Below are positions 732-36,275 of a DNA stretch of 36,520 nt, in pieces. The DNA lies in the IMG/VR virus record IMGVR_UViG_3300040808_001641, positions 1 through 36,520 of that record. The stretch is one strand, 5' to 3'. Each line of letters opens with the position of its first letter. The first letter of the stretch is position 1. The position numbers were made by a program, and so were the translations under genes. The notes under the pieces were generated by a model that was given only the letters and a program-made list of their open reading frames with translations, made no database searches and had not been told where the DNA came from. Source of the DNA: a virus.

Positions 732-932
732 CTATTTTACAGGCCGGTAAGAGCCTTTGACTCCGGTGTCTTCCTGACCCCCCCGGCCACAGTTCTCACA
801 GTGGTAGGGAACCCAAAACAGGCATTCTAGGAACTCGGACAGGGCATCCTCCAGAGACACATTGGGCGTGTTCCCTAGGTAATTGTTCAAGCTCTGCCGG
901 TCGATCTCAAATTCGAATGTGACCTTTTCCAT
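732..932 (-). CDS. Small protein with a CxxC motif, unknown function
   Basis: A 66-residue protein when started at 932 (MEKVTFEFEIDRQSLNNYLG). An in-frame ATG at 1010 would give 92 residues, but the extra codons cover a TTGACT promoter-like element (989-994) and an AAGGTA motif seen in other promoters. I therefore prefer the internal start, which has a GGAGACAGAG purine tract before it. The C-terminal third has HCENC followed by Gly and Arg, a single CxxC pair that could bind metal as a dimer or with another partner. No family is recognised. Confidence 0.55.
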   Translation of the reverse strand: MEKVTFEFEIDRQSLNNYLGNTPNVSLEDALSEFLECLFWVPYHCENCGRGGQEDTGVKGSYRPVK

Positions 933-973: not shown

Positions 974-994
974 ATAATACCTTAACAAAGTCAA
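974..994 (-). promoter_or_regulatory. Probable leftward promoter/operator
   Basis: The minus strand reads TTGACTTTGTTAAGGTATTAT. This closely resembles the rightward promoter at 7241 (TTGACTTAGTTAGGGTAAT). A clear -10 at 17 bases is not visible, so the exact promoter geometry is uncertain. It would drive the leftward small genes. Confidence 0.45.
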
Positions 995-2366: not shown

Positions 2367-2381
2367 TTACCCTAAGACTTA
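2367..2381 (+). promoter_or_regulatory. TTACCCTAAGACTTA promoter/operator-like element
   Basis: The same 15-mer occurs at 3934-3948 in a better promoter. Here a TTGCGT -35 candidate is at 2362-2367 and the downstream -10 is poor (CAATAA). It lies upstream of the leader at 2422 and the gene at 2451. Confidence 0.45.
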
Positions 2382-3916: not shown

Positions 3917-3948
3917 TTGACTTACCCTAACTTTTACCCTAAGACTTA
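3917..3948 (+). promoter_or_regulatory. Sigma70-like promoter with tandem TTACCCTAA sites
   Basis: TTGACT (3917-3922), a 17-base spacer and TAAGAC (3940-3945). TTACCCTAA occurs at 3922-3930 and again at 3934-3942, 12 bases apart, so both could be bound on one face of the helix. It drives the gene at 4002. Confidence 0.65.
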
Positions 3949-4001: not shown

Positions 4002-4259
4002 ATGACCATGACATACCACAAGCCCGACACCCAGATCATAACAGCGATTCGAACCGTGGAGAACACAGGCAAAGGTCGTTTCTTGCCCGGTGACGGATTC
4101 GACAAAAACGACGCCATCCCTCTGGATCACTACCTTTTTCGTCTTGGGTTCGATATCCACGACTACGAAGAACAAGGCAAGGGGCAACGGAAAAGCGTCA
4201 CGCTCACCAATGGCGTTAAGGTCAGCAGAAACGGCTATTGTTGCAAGGTAGACGTCTAA
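4002..4259 (+). CDS. Unknown small protein
   Basis: An 85-residue protein starting MTMTYHKPDTQIITAIRTVE. AAAAGGAAAA precedes it; a second in-frame ATG follows two codons later. It contains a Gly/Asp-rich loop (GRFLPGDGFDKNDA), an acidic-aromatic middle and CC near the C-terminus (YCCKV). It has a self-contained unit: its own promoter, hairpin leader and terminator. No family is recognised. Confidence 0.6.
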   Translation: MTMTYHKPDTQIITAIRTVENTGKGRFLPGDGFDKNDAIPLDHYLFRLGFDIHDYEEQGKGQRKSVTLTNGVKVSRNGYCCKVDV

Positions 4260-5163: not shown

Positions 5164-5193
5164 TTGACATTGAGGTAATAGCTAGGGTAGTAT
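5164..5193 (+). promoter_or_regulatory. Sigma70-like promoter for the 5232 gene set
   Basis: TTGACA (5164-5169), an 18-base spacer and TAGTAT (5188-5193). The spacer carries two GGTA half sites (GAGGTAATAG and CTAGGGTAG), with GTTACC further downstream at about 5202. Confidence 0.75.
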
Positions 5194-5231: not shown

Positions 5232-5573
5232 ATGAGTATCGAACGCACAGCCACAATCGAGAGTGATCTCTCAGTGTCGCTTGAACTGAGCTTTGATGCA
5301 GATGATCTGGTCTATGTCGCTCCTTCGGTTCAGGCCATTGGTGATGTGTCTCCTACCGTTCTGGAGGGGGTTGGTCTTGAGGAATTGGTTGATGAGTTCC
5401 TCCTCCAGAACGTAAATCAGGGTGACTACACTGCCCTCTACTGCATGGCCCACGAGTTCACTCGTCTGTCTGACATCCTTGCTTCCAAAGCTGTCCAGAT
5501 TGAGGACTCTGCTTTTGAGATGGGTCGTCGGTATAGGGTCGATACTGAGGCTATGATCGGAGACGACTTTTGA
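5232..5573 (+). CDS. Unknown acidic protein
   Basis: A 113-residue acidic protein starting MSIERTATIESDLSVSLELS. AGGATAGG lies upstream. It is the first gene after the promoter at 5164, and its stop overlaps the start of the nuclease-like gene. An N-terminal beta-rich part (residues 1-45) is followed by helices. The low positive charge and small size resemble those of early phage host-takeover or inhibitor proteins, but this is only inference from character and position. Confidence 0.65.
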   Translation: MSIERTATIESDLSVSLELSFDADDLVYVAPSVQAIGDVSPTVLEGVGLEELVDEFLLQNVNQGDYTALYCMAHEFTRLSDILASKAVQIEDSAFEMGRRYRVDTEAMIGDDF

Positions 5574-5989
5574 TCGATATCGTAGACCTCCCCCGACCGG
5601 CCAACACCTATATCTCGGGTGCATCTGGTGAGCTTCTGACAGCGTACGTTCTGACCCGAGTTGGTCTGCATGCCACTCTGGTTGATGCCAAAGGCCCTGA
5701 CATCTGGTGTCGTACTCAGGATGGCAGCATCTTCACAGTCGAAGTGAAGACGGCCATTGCCCCAACCCCTCGTGGGGTGGGAAAGCCCCGGAGCTACAGT
5801 TTTCAGGTTCCGGATCGACAGGCCGATATCTTCGCTTTCGTGGCTCTGGATAAGGAACGGGTTCTGTTCAAGCTTCCAGACAGTCTGCCGACATACACGA
5901 CAGTACGGATCAATCCTGAAGAGTTCGAAATCCGGAACGTCCTAGCCTCTCTTGATTTCATTCTAGCCGACCAAGGAATTGCCGCATGA
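5570..5989 (+). CDS. PD-(D/E)XK nuclease-like protein
   Basis: A 139-residue protein with the restriction-fold signature: SGASGE (Glu 21) at the start of the first helix, GPDI (Asp 44), then FTVEVKTA (Glu 58 and Lys 60). These form the expected E...D...ExK set of a PD-(D/E)XK nuclease. The family includes Holliday-junction resolvases, restriction enzymes and homing-type nucleases; which of these it is cannot be told. The start must be TTG at 5570, overlapping the previous stop (TTTTGA), with GGAGACG upstream, since no ATG occurs in the N-terminal domain. The next gene starts by ATGA overlap. Confidence 0.7.
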   Translation: MIDIVDLPRPANTYISGASGELLTAYVLTRVGLHATLVDAKGPDIWCRTQDGSIFTVEVKTAIAPTPRGVGKPRSYSFQVPDRQADIFAFVALDKERVLFKLPDSLPTYTTVRINPEEFEIRNVLASLDFILADQGIAA

Positions 5990-7216: not shown

Positions 7217-7269
7217 TTACCCTATGTCCAGACCTTTCTGTTGACTTAGTTAGGGTAATGTGCGATAAC
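7217..7269 (+). promoter_or_regulatory. Sigma70-like promoter with inverted TTACCCTA/TTAGGGTAA sites
   Basis: TTGACT (7241-7246), a 17-base spacer and GATAAC (7264-7269). TTAGGGTAA lies at 7250-7258 in the spacer and an inverted TTACCCTA at 7217-7224 upstream. It would drive the packaging gene set. Confidence 0.7.
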
Positions 7270-7313: not shown

Positions 7314-7535
7314 ATGATCAACATCATCTACATCCGAGCAGCCATTGAGGCTGCAACAGGCGTACGTGTTTCCCTCGAGCGAACACGGGAACTCCTCCTT
7401 GAGGAGGGTTTGATCACCCCGAAGCAATATCGCAACGACTGCTTCATGGGGGTGGATTACTCGTCTCTCTACGAATTCGACTCTGCCGACGTCTCTCAGC
7501 AATCCCTCGATCTCGTCGAGGGCATCCCCCTTTAG
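7314..7535 (+). CDS. Unknown small protein
   Basis: A 73-residue protein starting MINIIYIRAAIEAATGVRVS. The segment AAIEAATGVRVSLERTRELL followed by EEGLITPKQ looks like a small helical, possibly helix-turn-helix, DNA-binding module, which is an inference. The Shine-Dalgarno is poor. An alternative TTG start at 7275 would lie very close to the predicted transcription start and would add 13 residues. It precedes the small basic gene at 7545. Confidence 0.55.
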   Translation: MINIIYIRAAIEAATGVRVSLERTRELLLEEGLITPKQYRNDCFMGVDYSSLYEFDSADVSQQSLDLVEGIPL

Positions 7536-14002: not shown

Positions 14003-14031
14003 TTGCAATGTTACCTTAGTTGGTGTTATAA
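14003..14031 (+). promoter_or_regulatory. Sigma70-like promoter upstream of the tRNA region
   Basis: TTGCAA (14003-14008), a 17-base spacer and TTATAA (14026-14031). GTTACCTTAG lies at 14010-14019 inside the spacer. It starts 9 bases after the scaffold stop. Confidence 0.75.
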
Positions 14032-14037
14032 CAGCTA

Positions 14038-14125
14038 CATCGACGACGTGACATTGTCTCCCTAACTGACCGGGGCCTCTTGTAGGTTTCCTTCCTTTCC
14101 CTACTACGCCCCGGTTCTCTTTTTT
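14038..14125 (+). ncRNA. Possible short RNA or attenuator leader
   Basis: The predicted transcript from the promoter at 14003 reaches a strong terminator after about 88 bases, with no coding sequence. It might be a small RNA, or a leader ended by the terminator until antitermination. Confidence 0.35.
14069..14125 (+). terminator. Strong terminator before tRNA-Asn
   Basis: ACCGGGGC (14069-14076) pairs with GCCCCGGT (14108-14115); GTAGG/CCTAC (14082 and 14100) can form an inner stem. TCTCTTTTTT follows. The last T is the first base of the tRNA. Confidence 0.8.
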
Positions 14126-14200
14126 GCTTAGTAGCTCAGTAGGTAGAGCATCTGATTGTTAATTGGGCGGTCGTAGGTTCGAACCCTACCTAAGCAGCCA
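14125..14200 (+). tRNA. tRNA-Asn (GTT)
   Basis: A complete cloverleaf. Acceptor TGCTTAG pairs with CTAAGCA, then G and encoded CCA. D stem GCTC/GAGC, anticodon stem TCTGA/TTGGG with loop TTGTTAA (anticodon GTT), T stem GTAGG/CCTAC with TTCGAAC loop. The first pair is U-A, which is unusual but compatible. Confidence 0.93.
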
Positions 14201-14220: not shown

Positions 14221-14622
14221 TTGCATTTCCAAACTTTTAAGCAGCAAGGCGACTACGGTGTGGGTCAAGCAATAGCATGGTTCACATCTCAGGGAATGAC
14301 AGTGAGTCTCCCTCTTACAGACTCTCAAGATTATGACCTAGTTGTCGGTCAGTCCGGAGAGTCTCTACAGAGAGTACAGATTAAGACTACTAATCAGGTC
14401 ACCCCAAGCGGGGCATATAAGGCTCAGTTTCTTGTATGCGGCGGTAATCGTTCTGGTACAGGGGTAAAAAAATACCTGACTAACTCCCCTGACATAGACG
14501 TCTTTTTGGTAATTACCGGGGAAAGTAAGGGATACTTAATACCCAGAAAAGATATTGAAGGTCGTTCTAACTTGAACCTGTCTGGCCCCAACAACTTAGG
14601 CGAACAATATCGTCTTTGGTGA
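14221..14622 (+). CDS. PD-(D/E)XK homing-type endonuclease between tRNA genes
   Basis: A 133-residue protein with GDYGVGQAIAWFTSQGMTVS, DSQDYDLVV (Asp 39) and RVQIKTT (Gln 53 and Lys 55). This is the pattern of the PD-(D/E)XK family typified by the group I intron endonuclease I-Ssp6803I (the PDDEXK_5-type family), in which Q-x-K replaces E-x-K. Catalytic chemistry is metal-dependent DNA cleavage. The start appears to be TTG at 14221. Codon use and base composition (many A/T-ending codons) differ from the neighbouring structural genes, suggesting transfer. Both flanking tRNAs are intact, so it is free-standing, not intron-borne. Confidence 0.75.
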   Translation: MHFQTFKQQGDYGVGQAIAWFTSQGMTVSLPLTDSQDYDLVVGQSGESLQRVQIKTTNQVTPSGAYKAQFLVCGGNRSGTGVKKYLTNSPDIDVFLVITGESKGYLIPRKDIEGRSNLNLSGPNNLGEQYRLW

Positions 14623-14639: not shown

Positions 14640-14713
14640 GGGGGTGTAGCTGAGTGGCATAGCAGCGGTCTCCAAAACCGCGAACGGGGGTTCGATTCCC
14701 TCCACCCCCGCCA
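14640..14713 (+). tRNA. tRNA-Trp (CCA)
   Basis: A complete cloverleaf. Acceptor GGGGGTG pairs with CACCCCC, then G and encoded CCA. Anticodon stem GCGGT/ACCGC with loop CTCCAAA (anticodon CCA). T stem GGGGG/TCCCTC region with TTCGATT loop. Confidence 0.93.
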
Positions 14714-22667: not shown

Positions 22668-23029
22668 GCCAATTCACAGATGCGTCTGATTGGTGCGTTC
22701 CAGTTGGGGGTATCGACTACCGGGTCACGAAAGCACTCGAGTGGTATATTGGCTCCCCAGAAGGCCGACTTATCGTGGTCCCTGTCGGTCGTATTTTCAA
22801 CGTCTCAATCCCGGAAGGCCTGCGCTGGCTTTTCAGTCCCCACGATCCCCGTTTCCTGAAAGCAGCTGCCATCCACGATGAAATGCTGCACCATCTAGGG
22901 TTCGACCGTCTTCCGAACGGTCGTGTCCACGCTGCAGGACAGTTCCACCATGCTCTTCTCGTGGCTGGTGTTCCAGTAATCGAACGTCTTCCCATGCTGC
23001 TTGCAGTCCTTCTCTTCAAGTACCGCTAA
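22664..23029 (+). CDS. DUF1353-like protein
   Basis: A 121-residue protein resembling DUF1353 phage proteins: an N-terminal beta part, then FNVSIPEGLRWLFSPHDPRF, AAAIHDEMLHHLGF and a C-terminal helix with FHHALLVAGV. The His/Asp-containing AIHDEML stretch is the most conserved part of the family. Its role is not established; members are often near tail or lysis genes. The ATGA overlap with the previous gene defines the start. Its TAA lies in a CTAAGGTAT motif shared with promoters. Confidence 0.65.
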   Translation: MSQFTDASDWCVPVGGIDYRVTKALEWYIGSPEGRLIVVPVGRIFNVSIPEGLRWLFSPHDPRFLKAAAIHDEMLHHLGFDRLPNGRVHAAGQFHHALLVAGVPVIERLPMLLAVLLFKYR

Positions 23030-23037
23030 GGTATTTG

Positions 23038-23075
23038 TTAGACTTTTTTCGCTACCTGTGTTATAACACGGTAAC
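23038..23075 (+). promoter_or_regulatory. Sigma70-like promoter for the internal virion and lysis block
   Basis: TTAGAC (23038-23043), a 17-base spacer and TTATAA (23061-23066) inside a perfect palindrome GTGTTATAACAC (23058-23069), flanked by CTACC and GGTAAC. A CTAAGGTAT site overlaps the previous stop at 23026. Confidence 0.7.
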
Positions 23076-23143: not shown

Positions 23144-24853
23144 ATGGCAGGTCAAAACCTTTCGATTCAACAGTTTTCTCGGAACGGCAAGACATGGTGG
23201 TCTGCCGTCGATCAGAATGGCAATCCACAAGCCGGTCCTTGGTATGACAGGGGCAGCGCCAATTCGTGGCTGCAGGACTATCAGGGAAATAACAACCAGA
23301 ACGTCACTACCTCCGGCCTGAAAGCAGAAGCCCGAGGGCAAGACGTCTACAGCTCCGATGTAGATTCCAAGTACGCCGACCAGATCTCTGGTTTCGCAGG
23401 TCAGTACACCCCTCCGACGCAGCCGGTCCAAGGCATGGCGCAGTCTCGTTCCTCGGCTCGGGTTACTACCCCCCAGCAGACACAGGTTGATGGGTTTGCT
23501 TTTGGTGTCCAGCCGTCCCAGATCAGTAACACACAGGCCCCAGCAAATAGCTACGCCACGACTTTGGCTCCTTCTAACCAGACCCCTCAACCCACCTCTG
23601 CTGCTCCTACCCTGCCCGCGTACGACGATCCTATCGTGACGGCCTACCGAGATATCCTCGGTCGCAACCCCGGCCAAGAAGGGTACGACTTCTGGAATGG
23701 GGCCTTGGGCAGTGGCATGTCTATCAACGAGATCCGTAGCCAGATGGCGGCTTCCGACGAGGCTATGGGTACTGTGTCTGCGCCTACGACCGGCCTCCTG
23801 AATATTGTTAATCCGAACGCACAACCGGCACCGGCCCCAGCCCCCCAACAGCCTTCCGTGGACATGGCCCCGGTCACTGACGGCTTCGCCACCACAAACC
23901 AGAACCTTGGGGTGGTCAACGACAACATCGGAGCAGTCAACGACAACCTGACCACTGGCTTCGATGGCATGGCCCAAGGCATGACTGATGGTTTTGCTGG
24001 GGTAAATCAAAATGTAGTTGATACGGGACAAACAATCCTTGACAACCAAGCTGATATCGGCAATAATCTGGCCCAGAACCAAGCCCAGAACACAGAGACT
24101 ATTCTTGGTGGTCAGTCGGCTCTAAACGACGCCCTTTCCCAAGCATCTTCCGATCTTATGACGAGCCAGCAGGGTATCACCCAGCAGCTCACTCAGGCCG
24201 GTAACAACATGGCTCAGTATTATGCTGATCTGATGCAGGGCCAACAGACTATCGGTGGTGGGATCGACGGCTTTGCCGCAGACTTTGGTGATTTCCGGAA
24301 CCAGTACGACACTGACGTGGTCGCCGCTACAAACATGCGGACAGACACTCAGGAAATGGTTCAGGGAGGCTTCGAAGCAGTCCGGGACGATATGTCTACG
24401 CAGGCATCCGCACAGCAGCAAGGTCAAGAGGCCCTGATGCAGCGTGTTGGGACAGCTCAGATGGGCATTGCTGATGGCGGCGGTTTCGCCGGTATGCCTC
24501 AGAACCCAGCAGCTCCGCAGGCTCCTGCAGACCCCGCACAAGGTTCTATTGCCCAAGGCGTGAACCTGATCCGGGAGAACCTCCAGAACCTTCTGCCTCG
24601 TGTCTCTCCTGACGTTCAGCGTGGTTTCATCGGAGTTGCAAACTCCTTCGACGATCAGGGACGCCTGGTCCAGAATGGTCAGGACAGCGAAGGTAACACG
24701 ATGATCCGCAGCATGGATCGCTCCGGTATCCTCACCCTTCGTGGAATGGACCCGAACGGTAACATGATCGGCCAGACCCAGATCTCTGTCCCCCAAGTGT
24801 TCAATATCGCCTCTCAGGTCATGCGTGGGACCGGTGGAGGCTTTGCAGGTTAA
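23144..24853 (+). CDS. Virion-type protein with DUF4214-like segment
   Basis: A 569-residue protein rich in Gln, Ala, Asn and Pro. Residues about 160-205 read YDDPIVTAYRDILGRNPGQE followed by GYDFWNGAL, a DUF4214-like motif also seen in the gene at 22260. Residues about 245-420 form long Gln/Asn-rich helical repeats with GFDGM, GFAGV and GFEAV. The C-terminus is a globular domain. Its composition and its place after the promoter at 23038 and before the internal virion genes suggest a virion or ejected protein. A lysozyme gene starts immediately after the stop. Confidence 0.6.
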   Translation: MAGQNLSIQQFSRNGKTWWSAVDQNGNPQAGPWYDRGSANSWLQDYQGNNNQNVTTSGLKAEARGQDVYSSDVDSKYADQISGFAGQYTPPTQPVQGMAQSRSSARVTTPQQTQVDGFAFGVQPSQISNTQAPANSYATTLAPSNQTPQPTSAAPTLPAYDDPIVTAYRDILGRNPGQEGYDFWNGALGSGMSINEIRSQMAASDEAMGTVSAPTTGLLNIVNPNAQPAPAPAPQQPSVDMAPVTDGFATTNQNLGVVNDNIGAVNDNLTTGFDGMAQGMTDGFAGVNQNVVDTGQTILDNQADIGNNLAQNQAQNTETILGGQSALNDALSQASSDLMTSQQGITQQLTQAGNNMAQYYADLMQGQQTIGGGIDGFAADFGDFRNQYDTDVVAATNMRTDTQEMVQGGFEAVRDDMSTQASAQQQGQEALMQRVGTAQMGIADGGGFAGMPQNPAAPQAPADPAQGSIAQGVNLIRENLQNLLPRVSPDVQRGFIGVANSFDDQGRLVQNGQDSEGNTMIRSMDRSGILTLRGMDPNGNMIGQTQISVPQVFNIASQVMRGTGGGFAG

Positions 24854-34662: not shown

Positions 34663-35037
34663 TTAGCTCATGGAAGCAATGTCGTTGACCATAGTACGGT
34701 CAATCTCGATCAAGGCGTTGTGGGCATCTGTTAGAGCCATGTCCACTGCCTTGATAACGTCGATACGTTCATCCAGACGTATACCCGGCCCGTGAGCCAG
34801 AACGGTGAGAGCGTGAACGCTTGTTAGACGAGATTTAGCCCCCCGAAGAATCTTTGCTGCATCGGTAAGGGCAGCAGCTTGGTCCTGCAGTAGAGTGAAG
34901 GCTACTGCTTCTGTAACCTTGTCTCGTCCATGTTCTTTCGAAAGATCCTTAAACGCAGTGGGCTGTAGCTTCATAGAAGTGAGAAGCTCATTTGCCAGCT
35001 GTGTGAGGGCTTCCATTTCAGAGGTCTGTGTGGTCAT
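34663..35037 (-). CDS. Unknown helical protein
   Basis: A 124-residue, nearly all-helical protein starting MTTQTSEMEALTQLANELLT. An AAGGAAAA Shine-Dalgarno and a CTAACAGACC leader precede it on the minus strand. It has long hydrophobic heptads in its second half (VIKAVDMALTDAHNALIEID). It looks like a small helical-bundle protein. It shares size and architecture, but not clear sequence, with the next leftward gene upstream at 35108. Confidence 0.6.
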   Translation of the reverse strand: MTTQTSEMEALTQLANELLTSMKLQPTAFKDLSKEHGRDKVTEAVAFTLLQDQAAALTDAAKILRGAKSRLTSVHALTVLAHGPGIRLDERIDVIKAVDMALTDAHNALIEIDRTMVNDIASMS

Positions 35038-35082: not shown

Positions 35083-35111
35083 AAGTTACCCTAGTTGAGG
35101 TAACTGGTCAA
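35083..35111 (-). promoter_or_regulatory. Promoter with an inverted GTTACC/GGTAAC site
   Basis: On the minus strand TTGACC (35111-35106), a 17-base spacer and TAACTT (35088-35083). AGTTACC and GGTAACT form a 22-base dyad in the spacer and -10. The -35 overlaps the TGA stop of the preceding gene. Confidence 0.65.
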
Positions 35112-35410
35112 CCCCCCCTCCCAACTTTTTTTGCTTCACGGAGAGCAATATCCAGCTGATAGAGAGCAGAGTCAGCCTGTGCCGACTCGTCCTTCATCTT
35201 GTGGATAGAGGCCACCCGGTTTGCCTGTTCTAAGTTACGTCGGGCCTGTTCAAGCAGACCTGTAGCGGCATCAATCAGGGTGACCCCGTTGATACAGAAG
35301 CGGAGATAACTGGAGCGATGCTCCGACTCGATCAATTCGAAAGAGATATCCACCTCTTCGCCGCCGAGGTTGTCAACTTGGGCTTCAAACAGGTCTTGCT
35401 GTGTAGGCAT
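35108..35410 (-). CDS. Unknown acidic protein
   Basis: A 100-residue protein starting MPTQQDLFEAQVDNLGGEEV. AAGGGAC lies 7 bases upstream. The N-terminal half is beta-rich (ISFELIESEHRSSYLRFCIN); the second half is a charged helix. Its stop TGA is shared with the -35 TTGACC of the next leftward promoter. No family is recognised. Confidence 0.6.
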   Translation of the reverse strand: MPTQQDLFEAQVDNLGGEEVDISFELIESEHRSSYLRFCINGVTLIDAATGLLEQARRNLEQANRVASIHKMKDESAQADSALYQLDIALREAKKVGRGG

Positions 35411-35472
35411 TACAATGTCCCTTGTGTTTATCTAAGGTGAGTGGGTGTATCTTTGGATAGCACCCGATCCTT

Positions 35473-35497
35473 TTACCTTAGCAGGGGGAAGTGTCAA
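35473..35497 (-). promoter_or_regulatory. Promoter inside the 3' end of phoH
   Basis: On the minus strand TTGACA (35497-35492) lies within phoH codons, and CTAAGGTAA (35481-35473) contains the phoH stop codon. The -10 match (TAAAAG) is weak, so an activator may be required, or the motif may be an operator. Confidence 0.45.
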
Positions 35498-36209
35498 GGG
35501 GATCGCTGCGTAACCTTTCAAAAAATTTCACCCACTTCTTGCAGGCATCAGAACGGACCACGTCGTCGGAGGAGAATCTTACGACTCCCACATCTGTATT
35601 ATCCTGCTCCCACAGCGTGGTAAGCTCCTCAAAGGGGGGGTTTGGCCCAAGGTCACTCTGACGTGGATCACCGGTCATGGCGATGCGTGTACCCTCCCCT
35701 GTCCGAGTCAGGAACATTTCCAGCTCTGCCATCGTGGCGTTCTGAGCCTCGTCCAGTACGGCGAAAGCGCGATCATAGGACATACCACGGTCGTAGTTCA
35801 GAGGACGGGCCACAATCTCTTCCTTGCGGATCATGTAGTCAACCTTCTGAGGACCAAGGATTTTCCGCAGGTTCTGTAGAGGGGCAGCGGCCCACGGAGC
35901 CATCTTTTCGTCTACGTCTCCCTTGAAATATCCCAGCTCCTTTCCATCTACAGCCACTAGTGGACGGAGGAGAATGATCTGATCAATCTCACGTTCCACA
36001 TAGGCTCTTGCAGCCACAGCCAGAGGAATGTATGACTTCCCGGTCCCGGCAGACCCGATACCCACAGCAGTGTCGAAGGTGTTCAGGGCGGCTAGGTATT
36101 CTCTCTGTGGCGCAGTTCTCGGTCTGATTTCGACCGTCTTTTGGTACTTCGGAGTGGGTTCTACACCCTCTTGTATTTTGGTTCTACGGGTACGTCTCTG
36201 CTTGGCCAT
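35478..36209 (-). CDS. phoH: PhoH-like ATPase
   Basis: A 243-residue PhoH-family NTPase. Walker A GSAGTGKS lies at 52-59 and the Walker B region VLDEAQN at 151-157; LLRPLVAVDGKELGYFKGDV and TGDPRQSDL are further conserved blocks. PhoH proteins are RNA-associated ATPases/helicases frequently carried by marine phages; the role in infection is not settled. It begins with a basic tail (MAKQRRTRRTK). A promoter, CTAAGGTAAC motif and AGGAG Shine-Dalgarno precede it. Its last codons contain the promoter of the next gene. Confidence 0.93.
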   Translation of the reverse strand: MAKQRRTRRTKIQEGVEPTPKYQKTVEIRPRTAPQREYLAALNTFDTAVGIGSAGTGKSYIPLAVAARAYVEREIDQIILLRPLVAVDGKELGYFKGDVDEKMAPWAAAPLQNLRKILGPQKVDYMIRKEEIVARPLNYDRGMSYDRAFAVLDEAQNATMAELEMFLTRTGEGTRIAMTGDPRQSDLGPNPPFEELTTLWEQDNTDVGVVRFSSDDVVRSDACKKWVKFFERLRSDPLDTSPC

Positions 36210-36245: not shown

Positions 36246-36275
36246 GTTGTACCATGGTTACCTTAGCCGCTACAA
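36246..36275 (-). promoter_or_regulatory. Promoter for phoH
   Basis: On the minus strand TTGTAG (36275-36270), an 18-base spacer and TACAAC (36251-36246). CTAAGGTAAC (36266-36257) lies in the spacer. The terminator at 36278 ends just upstream. Confidence 0.55.

Follow-up and report, generated by a model that had tools for sequence, protein, structure and literature searches.

The stretch of DNA analysed here (the window) is the IMG/VR record IMGVR_UViG_3300040808_001641, which has 36,520 bases and 54% G+C. It is a piece of an HMO-2011-type podovirus genome, and phages of this type are reported to be a dominant marine group (PMC9038755). The terminase, head-tail adaptor/portal and coat genes are homologues of those of the HMO-2011 type and their order is unchanged. 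The large terminase subunit (TerL) is 60-63% identical to that of the Roseobacter phages CRP-3, CRP-738, CRP-212 and CRP-235, and the coat protein is 63-65% identical to its counterparts in the same four phages. Within the 36,520 bases we saw no gene for a DNA polymerase, a primase, a helicase or an integrase, whereas the relatives L113 and L140, both of which bear the motif described below, have a replication module (primase, helicase, DNA polymerase) and encode a phage integrase. The window is therefore a fragment; it lacks the replication/integrase half, and the missing part comes to roughly a third of the genome or more. Queries of viral contigs with phoH and early genes found no relatives.

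Genes for tRNA-Asn and tRNA-Trp (14125-14200, 14640-14713) lie between scaffold and coat, with a PD-(D/E)XK endonuclease ORF (14221-14622) between them. The ORF for the large terminase subunit in the relative L162 (L162:4536-7508) encodes 990 aa, with an intein-like insertion recognised by eye; the window counterpart has 650 aa.

A nine-base word at predicted promoters

The word TTACCYTAR has eight exact copies in the window (2367, 3922, 3934, 14011, 35086, 35473 and 36258 on the plus strand, 7250 on the minus strand). Dinucleotide shuffles contain 0.45 copies on average and four at most. Of 1,500 words made by permuting its letters, not one occurs as often as eight times in the window. All eight copies are at gene boundaries, and seven are intergenic in our gene map, in which intergenic DNA makes up 8.9% of the window (binomial P = 3e-7). 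The eighth, at 35473, has a four-base overlap with the phoH stop codon and stands in front of the next minus-strand gene. Variants with one mismatch are found at 977, 5170, 5182, 23026 and 35095. Across 39 collected sites there is little information beyond the nine core bases; the core itself is conserved by construction, because the sites were picked by resemblance.

The repetition of this word at promoters on both strands was first noticed in a sequence-only reading of the window, and it is confirmed here, as is the excess of intergenic over coding copies that the reading had proposed as a check. Both the 12-base step of the tandem at 3922/3934 and the dyad of 22 bases at 35084-35105 hold exactly as described, and the close variants reported at 5182, 23026 and the left-end minus-strand site (977) all differ by one base. 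The site at 7217 had been listed as a match but reads TTACCCTAT, with one mismatch; the two copies at 7217 and 7250 are inverted as claimed, one of them being imperfect. According to the reading, most copies fall within the spacers of TTGAC-type promoters. By eye such promoters are seen at 3917, 5164, 7241, 14003, 35083, 35470 and 36246, but a stricter consensus scan finds only those at 5164, 7241, 14003 and 35470, and several window promoters are weak by consensus (Table 1).

Table 1. Promoter-like features and repeated words in the window
Feature	Position	Strand	Details
Promoter-like TTGACT-17-TAAGAC	3917..3945	+	Two tandem exact predicted operators (3922, 3934), 12 bp apart; upstream of ORF 4002-4259
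Promoter A, TTGACA-18-TAGTAT	5164..5193	+	One-mismatch copies at 5170 and 5182, 12 bp apart; upstream of the operon from 5232 onward leading to terminase
One-mismatch copy TTACCCTAT	7217..7225	+	Upstream of promoter B, inverted relative to 7250; region conserved in L160
Promoter B, TTGACT-17-GATAAC	7241..7269	+	Exact predicted operator 7250-7258 in spacer; upstream of ORF 7314-7535
Promoter C, TTGCAA-18-TATAAC	14003..14032	+	Exact predicted operator 14011-14019 in spacer; between scaffold (ends 13994) and tRNAs/coat
Promoter-like TTGACC-17-TAACTT	35083..35111	-	Dyad AGTTACC-N8-GGTAACT, 22 bases (35084-35105); upstream of ORF 34663-35037(-)
Promoter-like TTGACA-16-TAAAAG	35470..35497	-	Exact predicted operator 35473-35481 overlaps -10; upstream of ORF 35108-35410(-)
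Promoter-like TTGTAG-18-TACAAC	36246..36275	-	Exact predicted operator 36258-36266 in spacer; upstream of phoH 35478-36209(-)
Exact predicted operator in intergenic gap	2367..2375	+	No convincing -10 found
One-mismatch copy 977-985 adjoining TTGACT	977..994	-	Promoter-B-like layout, no good -10; upstream of ORF 732-932(-)
Possible degenerate inverted pair TTACCTATG...GGGTAA	1221..1244	+	One-mismatch site 1236; upstream of ORF 1328-2092; absent from the sequence-only reading
Copies of CTAACAGAC	1257, 2423, 2596, 3973, 34574 (+); 160, 35052 (-)		In most cases shortly before a start codon or ribosome-binding site

Relative to its promoter, the word is forward at 3917 and 14003 and reverse at 5164, 7241, 35470 and 36246. 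Its position varies as well, and in both orientations it may lie in the spacer, over the -10 or, in the clade of L011, directly after the -10. Since place and orientation vary with respect to -35 and -10, and a sigma-factor element would keep its place, the word is better read as a predicted operator than as part of the promoter. A further promoter-like sequence at 23020-23070 (TGTGTTATAACA), upstream of ORF 23144-24853, resembles promoter C and has only a degenerate copy of the word.

Conservation in related phages

Relatives with about 59-77% protein identity keep the motif at the orthologues of promoters A, B and C. At promoter A, upstream of the orthologue of ORF 5232-5573, the window has TTGACATTGAGGTAATAGCTAGGGTAGTAT, L160 has TTGACTTAGGGTAATAGTTAGGGTAATAT and L162 has TTGACTTAAGGTATTTGTTAGGGTAATAT, the last two with two copies each. 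L003, L005, L007, L011, L263 and L265 have a single copy here, TTARGGTAA or CTAAGGTAA, directly after the -10; L002 retains the copy, and its -35 falls off the contig. At promoter B, upstream of the orthologues of ORF 7314-7535, the spacer contains GTTANGGTAA in the window, L160, L162 and L265, and L011 and L263 have GTTGGGGTAA. The leader downstream of promoter B diverges fast while the promoter and motif stay; in a comparison of the window with L160, the stretch upstream of the -35 is conserved as well. Promoter C, between scaffold and coat, carries TTACCTTAR in the window, L160 and L161 and a degenerate copy in L162. Absence from the promoters of related phages had been named beforehand as an observation that would count against a common operator; the motif is instead kept at orthologous promoters.

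In a permuted-word test, TTACCYTAR is enriched in the relatives G010, L140 with L002, L160 with L162, and L130 with L003, L005 and L007. Taken by themselves, L160 and L162 show a modest enrichment: 27 of the 1,500 permutations are as frequent there as the word itself. The word is not enriched in CRP-3, CRP-212 and CRP-738, nor in the parts of CRP-235 and HMO-2011 that were scanned. CRP-3, CRP-212, CRP-235 and CRP-738 resemble the window in having promoters at corresponding places upstream of the orthologues of gene A and gene B, but they are without the TTACCYTAR set. By this comparison, the motif appears confined to one clade of HMO-2011-type phages. Clade-specific words, such as CACCYTA in CRP-3, are suspected by eye in other CRP phages.

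When viral contigs were searched for the tandem form by itself, 43 contained it. Three of these (L130, L134 and L140) have genes for HMO-2011-type proteins along much of their length, with the tandem at a promoter: promoter A in L134, and in L130 and L140 a site flanked by the integrase/replication operon and the early genes of the plus strand, in the layout seen at 3917..3945. L113 has a degenerate tandem in the same place. The 40 matches without HMO-2011 gene context (three more had weak single-gene matches) were set aside and include unrelated 12-bp repeats. The promoter-B pattern picked out five contigs, three known relatives together with L249 and L250, both of them relatives as well. The pattern comes from an orthologous promoter, so the scan recovers relatives and is not an independent test of the motif; L249, moreover, is close to L011 and therefore not an independent lineage.

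The predicted operator set and its regulator

What would such a word do? We think it probable that a single sequence-specific DNA-binding regulator has TTACCYTAR as its operator in one HMO-2011-type clade; this protein would probably be a repressor encoded by the phage. An operator set for one regulator, as the sequence-only reading had suggested, is well supported as a prediction by the intergenic enrichment, the location at promoters on both strands and the conservation at orthologous promoters of relatives. Its extension to nearly all promoters is less certain: near 23040, a promoter-like sequence has no better than a degenerate copy. One regulator would control the scattered early, packaging and capsid promoters, and by sitting on the spacer, the -10 or the start site it would block the sigma-70 RNA polymerase of the host. 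At the tandem copies 12 bp apart and at the dyad, two protein molecules would bind cooperatively.

Could the set have arisen without any regulator, an AT-rich word merely accumulating in the intergenic DNA of a 54% G+C genome? Intergenic composition does differ from that of genes, and a promoter-A match in L060, L061 and L066, not shared with their sister genomes L058 and L064, may itself be due to chance and was set aside. However, permuted words with the same letters never reach the observed count, and copies are retained at orthologous promoters while the surrounding DNA diverges; an origin by chance or composition is very improbable and appears strongly disfavoured by the conservation. An activator site, for example for a phage early protein that switches on the packaging and capsid promoters, would suit the imperfect sequences of many promoters (TTGCAA, GATAAC, TAAGAC) and the conservation of promoter B upstream of the -35 in the window and L160. 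Most copies, by contrast, lie between or over the -35 and -10 and not upstream, which is the usual place of repressors. Activation of the MerR type needs a dyad in a spacer of 19-20 bp, whereas the spacers here are 16-18 bp and most sites are single. We regard activation as quite unlikely, and infer that a protein bound at the word would repress.

The regulator might also belong to the host, the phage having adopted host operators and so tied its genes to the state of the host. The promoters that the sites overlap are of the sigma-70 type and would be read by the host polymerase, and our search turned up no phage regulator. Yet the tandem form is present in none of 395 genomes from the family of a Rhodobacteraceae bin, a comparison that covers the tandem form only and has limited power, as few tandems are expected by chance. 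Nor is the word enriched in CRP phages that infect Rhodobacteraceae. A host factor therefore seems unlikely, and the missing tandem in these bacterial genomes together with the lack of enrichment in CRP-3, CRP-738 and CRP-212 favours a protein of the phage. A lysogeny repressor is plausible, because L140 and L113 carry an integrase and CRP-3, a member of the HMO-2011-type group, has been shown to be able to integrate (PMC9038755).

Which protein might fill this role? Scans of 56 small proteins with PHROGs and Pfam gave one helix-turn-helix family match only, a Fis-type HTH_8 in L011/L140; this protein is without a homologue in the window and was rejected as the regulator. No repressor of the cluster A kind, which has a helix-turn-helix and a stoperator domain and binds as a monomer, was seen among the 56 small proteins, the window being a fragment. 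The gene-B protein (7314-7535; 73 aa, INLIYIRAAIEANTG...LVEEGLIT) has conserved orthologues in dozens of HMO-2011-type phages, some of them without the motif, and matches no Pfam family. Its predicted model has three helices and a mean pLDDT of 69 (about 85 over the first 40 residues), with no significant structural match. ORF 5570-5989 is, among the matches listed, the only small ORF (<260 aa) found in all motif-bearing contigs of the packaging region and in none of the named CRP/HMO records compared. It has nuclease-like motifs by eye and its orthologues in L011 and L265 have no Pfam match; it was rejected as not an obvious regulator. To our knowledge, TTACCYTAR fits none of the host boxes for CtrA, LexA, DnaA, FNR and PhoB. 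A literature search for the word found nothing relevant among the papers listed, and we found no described regulatory site for HMO-2011-type phages; the main genomic paper on the group mentions neither promoter nor repressor (PMC9038755). Separately, a match to the Acb2/Tad1 hairpin family (alignment A1, E 2.8e-18) makes one small protein, encoded by the window or by a relative, a possible anti-defence protein.

Known operator systems and other repeats

In the way it would work, the set in the window comes closest to the operator/stoperator system of the cluster A mycobacteriophages (L5 repressor), with which it shares one short asymmetric word at many intergenic and promoter places per genome (PMC9283540). 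Stoperator sites in cluster A have 13 bp, number more than 20 per genome and follow the direction of transcription (PMC9283540), whereas the words in the window have 9 bp, number about 8-12 per 36 kb and occur in both orientations relative to transcription, with 12-bp tandems and a dyad in addition. No repressor homologous to that of cluster A was seen. Because the orientation ignores transcription and no matching repressor was seen, we do not claim membership of the stoperator systems. The operators of lambda CI and Cro are 17-bp dyads clustered at two promoters, where several overlap the -35 or -10 and some are paired. Overlap with -35/-10 and pairing are also found among the predicted operators of the window, which are, in contrast, words of 9 bp, for the most part single, spread over seven or more promoters.

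The window thus contains a real, conserved set of predicted operators, new in itself and of a kind of phage regulation that is already known. A tentative and rather doubtful extension is that one clade of the abundant marine HMO-2011 type uses genome-wide, stoperator-like control through single 9-bp words and 12-bp tandems read by an unrecognised kind of repressor, the other words of sister clades marking immunity groups. A conserved operator set offers a handle for finding the switch protein of HMO-2011-type phages. It also helps to test whether the integrase-bearing members lysogenise and to predict superinfection immunity between strains.

Other repeats are present in the window and its relatives. 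The most over-represented intergenic 9-mer in the window is CTAACAGAC, with seven intergenic and no coding copies, often as CCTAACAGACCAAA; it is essentially absent from the relatives and may be an element of leaders or one that acts at the RNA level. The sequence ACC(T/C)(G/C)CGCGTGAGG occurs three times, at 174, 717 and 1059, between the minus-strand genes of the left end. Upstream of a small DUF1127 gene in relatives (L011:8231-8262, L263:5101, L265:5114), TTACCYTAR forms one arm of a conserved dyad, ATAATTACCT...AGGTAATTAT, over the ribosome-binding site; in L011, L263 and L265 this dyad may act as a hairpin in the RNA and not as an operator.
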